A stretch of 57,857 nt of DNA from Chloroflexia bacterium (GTDB lineage: Bacteria; Chloroflexota; Chloroflexia; Thermomicrobiales; CFX8), in assembly GCA_030431755.1 (NCBI GenBank), contig JAUIIK010000016.1, forward strand, positions 1-57,857, given 5' to 3'. The notes below the pieces were generated by a model. That model was not told where the DNA came from and did no database searches. It saw only the letters and a list, made by a program, of their open reading frames with translations. Shown here in pieces: positions 34,534 to 37,978 of this stretch (positions are counted from its first letter, which is position 1; each line of letters starts with the position of its first letter). The position numbers and the translations under genes were made by a program.

Positions 34534-35079
34534 TCAATCTTCGAGCCCGATACCGAGCCCGTCAGCCGTGCGGTTCACATAAGCGTAGTAGGCCGTGACC
34601 TGATTGATATCGAGAATGTCGGTGTCGCTGAACCCGACCTCGCGTAACCTGACCACGTCAGCTTCGACCATGTTCCACGGTTCGAGCGTCAGCTTCTCGA
34701 CATAGACGAGCATGGTCCGCTGCCGGTCGTCAATCGCCGCTGTGTGGAAATCGTCAATCAGTTCCCCGGCAAGGTCCGGGTTGCGTGTGAGACGGCCAAG
34801 ACCGGCCGAGTGATGGACGACTCAGTAGTGGCACTTGTTGAGCGCCGAGACGACGACCCCGATCATCTCGCGTTCAGCAAAACTCAACCCGGACTTGCCG
34901 TGCATGACGGTGTGATAGAGGTCTGCATGGGCGCGGAGTGTATCCGGGTTCAGGCTGTGGATGGCCATGATATTGTCGACCTTGCCGGTGCGCCGGTCCC
35001 GCTCCTGGTCGTAGAGTTCCCGTAGCTGCCCCTCGGCGTCTTCGTCCGCAATGATCTCGATCCAGGCCCGGTTCGCCAT
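34534..35079 (-). CDS. AhpD/CMD-family peroxidase-related protein, probable selenoprotein (Sec86)
   Basis: Reading through an in-frame TGA at 34822-34824 gives a 181-residue protein of the carboxymuconolactone decarboxylase/AhpD family, in the peroxidase-related group. The first 85 residues (AHADLYHTVMHGKSGLSFAE, REMIGVVVSALNKCHY) and the part after the TGA (VVHHSAGLGRLTRNPD, then VNRTADGLGIGLED) are both well conserved in type. The TGA falls where the second Cys of NxCxYCxxHH belongs, giving Cys83-x-x-Sec86. A hairpin with a GGUCUU loop follows. This family includes known bacterial selenoproteins. Role: thiol/selenol peroxide or peroxynitrite reduction. ATG 35079 has GGGGGTGG before it. The alternative is a nonsense mutation. 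Confidence 0.8.
34793..34808 (-). promoter_or_regulatory. candidate bacterial SECIS hairpin
   Basis: On the minus strand CGGCC-GGTCTT-GGCCG forms a 5-bp stem with a 6-nt loop. The loop GGUCU starts 18 nt after the TGA, the same distance and loop core as in the E. coli fdhF SECIS. The stem is shorter than in classic cases. Confidence 0.65.
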
Positions 35080-35207: not shown

Positions 35208-36566
35208 TTGCTCGACACACGCATACGCCCCCTGAACGACGCGCCGGACGACAGCGACGGTGACTGCGTCATCTATCTGATGTCCCGCGATCAGCGCGTC
35301 GCCGACAACCACGCGCTCTTAGCCGCCCAGCGAGATGCGCTCGAACGCAAACTGCCGCTCATCGCGCTCTTCAAGCTCTACCCAACCGTCGCGAACCGCG
35401 TCCGGCAGCACTACCAGTTCATGCTCGGGGGCTTGGAACAGGTAGAGCGGCGGCTGAACGAGCTGAACATCCCACTCATCGTCACGACCGACAGTCTCGA
35501 CGCGGCCCTGGAGGAGCTGTCACCTGCCGCCCTCTACTTCGACTTCTCGCCACTGCGCGGCCCCCAGGCGCTCCGCAAGCGGCTCGCGCGCACGGCGGCA
35601 TACCCGGCGTACGAGGTTGATGCCCATAACATCGTGCCGGTCTGGGTCACATCTGAGAAACAGGAGTACGCCGCCCGCACGATCCGCCCGAAGCTGCATG
35701 CCCACCTCGACGATTACCTGACCGATCCAGAGCAGATCGAGCGGCATCCGCACGGTCCGCAGTCGCTCGCCCAGACCGATTGGGACCAGGTCTGGAACCA
35801 CATCGTCGTCAGGAGACCCGACGGCTACAACCCACCTTTCGAGCCAGGCGAGGACGCCGCCCGAGCGGCGCTGGACAGCTTCATTCACGAGCGGCTGGCG
35901 GCCTACGACGCGGACCACAACGACCCGGTCCACAACGGGCAATCCGGGCTTAGTCCCTATCTGCACTTCGGGCAGCTGGCAAGCCTGCGGGCGGCGCTCG
36001 AAGTGACGGCATTTGCGCGCGAGCATGGCGACGATGAGCAGATCCAGATCTCCGCCGAGGCATTCATCGAGCAGCTCATCGTCCGCAAGGAGCTGTCCGA
36101 CAACTTCTGCTACTACAACGCCAACTACGACAACTGGCATGGCCTGCCGGACTGGGCCAGGGCGACGCTGGACGAACATCGCGGTGATGCCCGCGCACAC
36201 CTCTACGACCTCGATGAGTTCGAATCTGCGGCCACCCACGACGAGGCTTGGAACGCCGCCCAGACTGAACTGATGACGACCGGTAAGATGCACAATTACA
36301 TGCGGATGTACTGGGCTAAGAAGATCCTCGAATGGACGCCCGACCCGGAAACCGCCATCGATATCGCGATCACGCTGAATGACCGCTTCGAGCTCGACGG
36401 TTACGACCCGAACGGCTACGTCAACATCCTCTGGGCTATCGGTGGCCTCCACGACCGCGCCTGGCAGGAGCGCCAGGTCTACGGCAAGGTCCGCTACATG
36501 AACGCCAACGGTCTCAAGCGCAAATTCGACATCGAGAGGTACATCGAGCGCTGGATCGGGAGCTAG
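35208..36566 (+). CDS. phr: class II CPD photolyase
   Basis: The 452-residue flavoprotein repairs cyclobutane pyrimidine dimers with light. Class II marks include YLMSRDQRVADNHALLAAQ near the start, ELSDNFCYYNANYDNWHGL in the FAD domain, and MHNYMRMYWAKKILEW and PNGYVNILWAIGGLHDRAWQ, which bind FAD and the flipped dimer. TTG start has GGAG 9 nt upstream. The last 39 codons are duplicated at 37865-37978. The gene is divergent from the AhpD-family gene, and its stop overlaps the next minus-strand gene by 4 bp. Confidence 0.93.
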   Translation: MLDTRIRPLNDAPDDSDGDCVIYLMSRDQRVADNHALLAAQRDALERKLPLIALFKLYPTVANRVRQHYQFMLGGLEQVERRLNELNIPLIVTTDSLDAALEELSPAALYFDFSPLRGPQALRKRLARTAAYPAYEVDAHNIVPVWVTSEKQEYAARTIRPKLHAHLDDYLTDPEQIERHPHGPQSLAQTDWDQVWNHIVVRRPDGYNPPFEPGEDAARAALDSFIHERLAAYDADHNDPVHNGQSGLSPYLHFGQLASLRAALEVTAFAREHGDDEQIQISAEAFIEQLIVRKELSDNFCYYNANYDNWHGLPDWARATLDEHRGDARAHLYDLDEFESAATHDEAWNAAQTELMTTGKMHNYMRMYWAKKILEWTPDPETAIDIAITLNDRFELDGYDPNGYVNILWAIGGLHDRAWQERQVYGKVRYMNANGLKRKFDIERYIERWIGS

Positions 36567-37796: not shown

Positions 37797-37978
37797 CCAG
37801 CGGTCGCAACCTCAGCAGGAAGCTCAACTCCGCGACACTGACCGCGACGAGCGGGGCCACTACTCACGACCGCGCCTGGCAGGAGCGCCAGGTCTACGGC
37901 AAGGTCCGCTACATGAACGCCAACGGTCTCAAGCGCAAGTTCGATATTGGGATGTACATCGAGCGCTGGTCGAAGTAG
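37797..37978. pseudogene. rearrangement scar: MFS 3'-end fragment joined to photolyase 3'-end fragment
   Basis: 37865-37978 repeats the last 38 codons of the photolyase gene; the first 74 bp are identical to 36450-36523, then the copies drift but keep reading frame and stop. 37797-37855 resembles the 3' end of the MFS gene at 38962-39020 (roughly three quarters identical by eye, minus-strand sense). The two fragments meet at about 37860. No start or complete domain is present. Confidence 0.75.

Follow-up and report, generated by a model that had tools for sequence, protein, structure and literature searches.

Does the minus-strand frame described here belong to a broken gene, or is its one internal TGA read as selenocysteine (Sec)? 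The frame lies in a 57,857-nucleotide stretch of Chloroflexia bacterium DNA, called the window throughout. Translation of positions 35079–34534 (-) gave 181 residues and a terminal TGA, with the lone internal TGA (34824–34822) in the context NKCHY(U)VVHH, exactly the frame that the original prediction had described (Table 1). The read-through product was matched by the model for AhpD-like peroxidase-related enzymes (TIGR01926) at 147.4 bits, compared with a cut-off of 81.8, over nearly the full length of both (residues 5–177 of 182; model positions 1–173 of 178), and Pfam CMD also matched. Because the TIGR01926 match runs across the TGA, both halves belong to one protein, which agrees with their earlier assignment to a single AhpD/CMD peroxidase-related protein. 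We put the probability at about 95% that the frame encodes a functional selenoprotein belonging to the AhpD-like 'peroxidase-related enzyme' subfamily, with the UGA predicted to encode Sec. Gene callers for which TGA can only mean stop would annotate a pseudogene, or two broken halves, at a place that appears to hold a single redox enzyme, the product of which is probably selenium-dependent.

Table 1. Positions of the gene and of its predicted functional elements in the window.
Feature	Position	Strand	Remarks
Predicted Sec-containing AhpD-like / peroxidase-related enzyme gene (TIGR01926)	34534..35079	-	ATG 35079, terminal TGA 34536–34534; TIGR01926 147.4 bits, Pfam CMD 44.4 bits
Predicted selenocysteine codon, in-frame UGA (residue 86, second position of CxxU)	34822..34824	-	From homologue alignment
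Predicted bacterial SECIS apical hairpin, CGGCC-GGUCUU-GGCCG	34793..34808	-	Loop starts 18 nt after UGA; -8.5 kcal/mol
Cys83 codon; predicted to be the resolving partner of Sec in CxxU	34831..34833	-	Invariant in aligned close relatives
His90 codon, spaced like the conserved active-site His of AhpD (redox Cys + 4)	34810..34812	-	Invariant in aligned close relatives; putative role, from AhpD
Glu71 codon, spaced like the conserved active-site Glu of AhpD (first Cys - 12)	34867..34869	-	Invariant in aligned close relatives; putative role, from AhpD

Relatives were drawn from the order, the phylum and named genomes, the nearest being 61% identical to the window protein. Identity reached 45% or more in 22 sequences (window gene included); the homologous codon was TGA in 21 of these and TGC in the remaining one, L076. 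The 20 relatives with TGA at this exact codon spanned the Chloroflexota, Acidobacteriota, Bacillota and Actinomycetota, the named carriers being metagenome-assembled genomes of these phyla (Acidimicrobiales within the Actinomycetota); in homologues more distant than 45% identity, the codon was TGC or TGT (Cys, in many) or TGA. The TGA had been placed at the second Cys of a CxxC motif, and the Cys codons found in the same column, in L076 and in many of the more distant homologues, agree with this placement. On a tree of 55 rows, the Sec/Cys label required only 4 changes, compared with 16.5 when labels were shuffled, and the window gene fell among Chloroflexota Sec forms, next to the single Cys form L076, which sits on a long branch. 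Viral contigs were scanned as well and contained no relatives. Two more TIGR01926 Sec forms, L048 and L049 (genomes G003 and G001, from the same family and order), carry CVYU and CHYU and are 30–33% identical to the window protein.

These comparisons bear on two simpler accounts of the internal stop. A nonsense mutation, leaving either a decaying pseudogene or only an 85-residue N-terminal fragment, would be consistent with a frame that is open but for one internal stop, and TGC or TGT can become TGA in a single step; however, the same codon is TGA in four phyla, no further internal stops were found among the aligned close relatives, the two sides of the codon are similarly conserved (identity to the window before and after the TGA is 0.63 and 0.59 for L068, and 0.57 and 0.62 for L057) and the genome carries Sec machinery, all of which makes decay highly improbable. 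The random frame damage in close relatives that would have spoken for decay is absent, the TGA instead being kept in all 20 of those noted above. A sequencing or assembly error that altered a single base of what is really a Cys codon, conceivable in a draft genome of 272 contigs, is very unlikely indeed, to the point of being negligible, because the codon is conserved: the same TGA appears independently in the 20 relatives, and the GGTCT hairpin downstream of it fits Sec forms, not Cys forms.

The same draft (5.15 Mb, 97% complete, 2.8% contaminated) encodes all four components of Sec decoding, the absence of which would have weighed most heavily against the original prediction. Each match exceeded its curated cut-off: selA at 506 bits, selB at 318 bits (632 amino acids, with the SelB beta-barrel and the SelB-wing_2 and wing_3 winged-helix domains), selD at 363 bits and the tRNA-Sec gene selC at 78 bits (gathering threshold 47), the last also called by ARAGORN as tRNA-SeC(tca), anticodon TCA. 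Contamination of the bin was considered as a source of these genes and rejected as unlikely, because the contigs that carry them share the GC content (0.63–0.65) and tetranucleotide profile (r = 0.93–0.98) of the window; as controls, pieces of the window compared with its remainder gave r = 0.85–0.94, and loci from other genomes, which were shorter, gave r = 0.16–0.73. Across the order, selA was found in 46 of 61 genomes and Sec decoding is therefore a property of the lineage, the window gene being one indication of how widely Sec is decoded in it.

Two further loci in the genome of the window carry in-frame TGA codons. The selD gene (L022; genome G000, contig C13, 10733–11668 and just upstream) has one near the N-terminus, in STAG-U-ASKLAPA, because of which SelD is itself a predicted selenoprotein. 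A second Sec-type AhpD-like paralogue (L010 / L099; G000 contig C172, 33–467) has the motif GCVF-U-TLSH, and a strong hairpin just 3' of its TGA (GCCGGU...GCCGGC) outperformed 100 of 100 synonymous shuffles.

That the window frame stays open through the TGA would also be expected if TGA were an ordinary sense codon (under an alternative code, for example TGA = Trp) or were read through without selenium. This we regard as barely credible: the window gene itself terminates at TGA, as do 18 of the 39 long non-overlapping window open reading frames (picked mechanically), the homologue column holds Cys, not Trp, the Sec-specific genes selA, selB and selD are all intact, and the window suggests that other conserved genes of the genome are without in-frame TGAs. 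Conservation, together with the Sec machinery, led us to reject the pseudogene, recoded-TGA and base-error readings alike, and the earlier view that this is a real Sec codon and not a broken gene draws support from the machinery, the conserved TGA and the comparative SECIS results below, all of them sequence-based.

A functional Sec codon in bacteria would be expected to have a SECIS hairpin, and a candidate lies where it had been predicted: the TGA is followed by 13 nt and then by CGGCC-GGTCTT-GGCCG, with GGTCT beginning after exactly 18 nt. The window has 1,539 TGA trinucleotides, counting both strands. GGTCT follows at this distance in 3 cases, and only one of these, the TGA of the window gene, is also accompanied by a stem of 5 bp or more; the full pattern is satisfied at 5 of 115,582 positions. 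The arrangement resembles that of the E. coli fdhF SECIS, in which a GGUCU apical loop core likewise starts 18 nt after the UGA; it differs from the fdhF element in that its stem is a plain 5 bp. In L068, L056 and L058 the stem is 6 bp long and a single U bulges out of its 3' strand.

Judged within the window, the hairpin is less distinctive. The sequence is GC-rich, and looser bSECIS-like hairpins follow 42% of its TGAs; because they are so common by chance, the hairpin alone is unconvincing. In a broad scan of bSECIS energies, 72% of synonymous shuffles scored as well as the window sequence, and an Rfam search of the window gave no match. The 5 bp stem, acknowledged as a weak point from the outset, is a real one: in single-sequence folding, the hairpin was not part of the minimum free energy (MFE) fold of the isolated 41–53 nt RNA (z-scores -1.0 to +0.2), which is predicted to fold otherwise. 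A preferred fold of the isolated RNA is, however, a desirable property that lies outside the published bSECIS model; as set out in a 2026 review, that model calls for a loop of 3–9 nt, an upper stem of 4–16 bp, G in the first two loop positions, a distance of 16–37 nt from the UGA and an MFE of at most -7.5 kcal/mol (PMC13188914). The window hairpin falls within these limits, having a 6-nt loop (GGUCUU) on a 5 bp stem, a distance of 18 nt from the UGA and, taken by itself, an energy of -8.5 kcal/mol.

Clearer support came from relatives. We counted stems of at least 5 bp in a narrow SECIS register and compared the counts with those expected after synonymous recoding, in which codons were drawn anew according to local usage and each protein was left unchanged. 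Of the close Sec forms, 19 of 21 had such a hairpin, where 8.5 were expected (nominal P = 8 × 10−8); of the distant ones, 10 of 18 did, where 4.8 were expected (nominal P = 0.004). The codon for the apical Gly was GGT in 14 of 16 cases (3.3 expected, nominal P = 1 × 10−8), although these P values overstate the case, because they treat related sequences as independent and because the register was chosen after the sequences had been inspected. The identical test revealed no excess in Cys forms of the same family (5 of 26 versus 4.4 expected, P = 0.45, with the same reservation), and Gly occupied the apical position in only 1 of these 26. Pairing was kept while the stem sequences differed (CGGCC/GGCCG in the window, GACGG/CCGTC in L071, GAGCG/CGCTC in L059, CGGCGC/GCGCCG in L065 and, with a bulged U, GCGGCC/GG(U)CCGC in L068), and a second register, ACGGAG...CUCCGU or CUUCGU, was found in L061, L062, L064, L074, L075 and L077. 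We therefore consider the predicted SECIS element weak from the window sequence alone and solid by comparison, noting that the support came from the narrow-register comparative test and from neither folding nor the broad energy scan. Taken with the full machinery in the genome, the retention of both codon and RNA signal across four phyla indicates that the TGA is almost certainly read as Sec.

For Sec insertion, SelA and SelD would produce Sec-tRNA(Sec) on the selC product (anticodon UCA) and SelB would bind the hairpin downstream of the UGA to deliver Sec, yielding a 181-residue protein with the redox pair Cys83-His-Tyr-Sec86. Glu71 and His90 flank this pair at the spacings of the active-site Glu and His of AhpD, so that E71, C83, U86 and H90 together make up a CxxU motif with the flanking Glu and His. 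If the enzyme works as AhpD does, a (hydro)peroxide or a comparable electrophile would most likely be reduced by the Sec selenolate, which would then form a selenenylsulfide with Cys83 and be regenerated by one of the thiol systems of the cell. The analysis shows the frame, the machinery, the conserved codon and a hairpin that is conserved although its stem sequence varies; Sec insertion in the cell, the peroxidase activity and the reductant are inferred.

A selenoprotein with a role other than that of a peroxidase, for example one resembling carboxymuconolactone decarboxylase or acting in thiol-disulfide exchange, is unlikely, albeit a serious contender. It would accord with the Pfam match to CMD (44 bits), with the nature of TIGR01926, which is a mere subfamily model named 'peroxidase-related', and with the putative or uncharacterized names of the solved relatives 3c1l, 2pfx, 2oyo and 2prr (E values of 1.8 × 10−32 to 1.3 × 10−21). 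Against it, CxxU, Glu71 and His90 retain the AhpD catalytic spacing, and Sec stands in place of the redox Cys. The four structures are related to the window protein in sequence, and the CxxC of 3c1l and 2pfx aligns to its CxxU; they carry Cys, whereas the window protein is predicted to carry Sec.

Sec forms of AhpD-like proteins, on which the original prediction had drawn as known, have been described from the Sargasso Sea (PMC1088965) and, as CxxU families, from GOS data (PMC2398784), and an 'AhpD-like protein, TIGR01926, CxxU' appears among known prokaryotic selenoproteins in the 2026 review (PMC13188914). The catalogued protein and that of the window share the family model (147 bits) and the motif with Sec second, and ordinary sequence divergence was the only difference found. 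The catalogued family may be identical to those called 'AhpD-like' in the two earlier surveys. NF041238 (AhpD_rel_CFYUT) likewise describes an AhpD-related alkylhydroperoxidase-related (seleno)protein with CxxU; it differs in that the window protein, at 46.9 bits against a cut-off of 175, falls outside it. Since TIGR01926 CxxU is already catalogued, the window gene extends a known family and is a real, ordinary addition to it; a literature search for alkylhydroperoxidase selenoproteins in Chloroflexi found no paper. Its main value is as a well-supported example with a natural set of Sec and Cys relatives.

Beyond the gene itself, we see roughly even odds that it belongs to a mostly-Sec subfamily (about 45–60% identical, four phyla) in which Sec has prevailed over Cys and been long kept, with two SECIS registers, the GGUCU loop and the ACGGAG...CUCCGU stem shifted by about two bases, in neighbouring lineages. 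Such a subfamily would offer a good natural set in which to measure Sec/Cys exchange and SECIS drift within one enzyme.

In other genomes of the phylum, a TIGR01926-related group has GGAP-U-LGxH in place of CxxU, a predicted Sec site without the partner Cys (GxxU). All 8 of its loci (L040, L041, L053, L054, L103, L105, L106 and L107) have the TGA, TIGR01926 accepts one member at 96 bits, and the closest Cys relatives carry GAKPC (L104 and L109); in the passages covered from the catalogue of the 2026 review, AhpD-like families appear with CxxU only (PMC13188914). Elsewhere in the window, a 105-nt direct repeat (36450–36554 and 37865–37969, 95% identical) consists of the 3' end of a photolyase-like gene (35208–36566), copied 1.4 kb downstream without the remainder of the gene.
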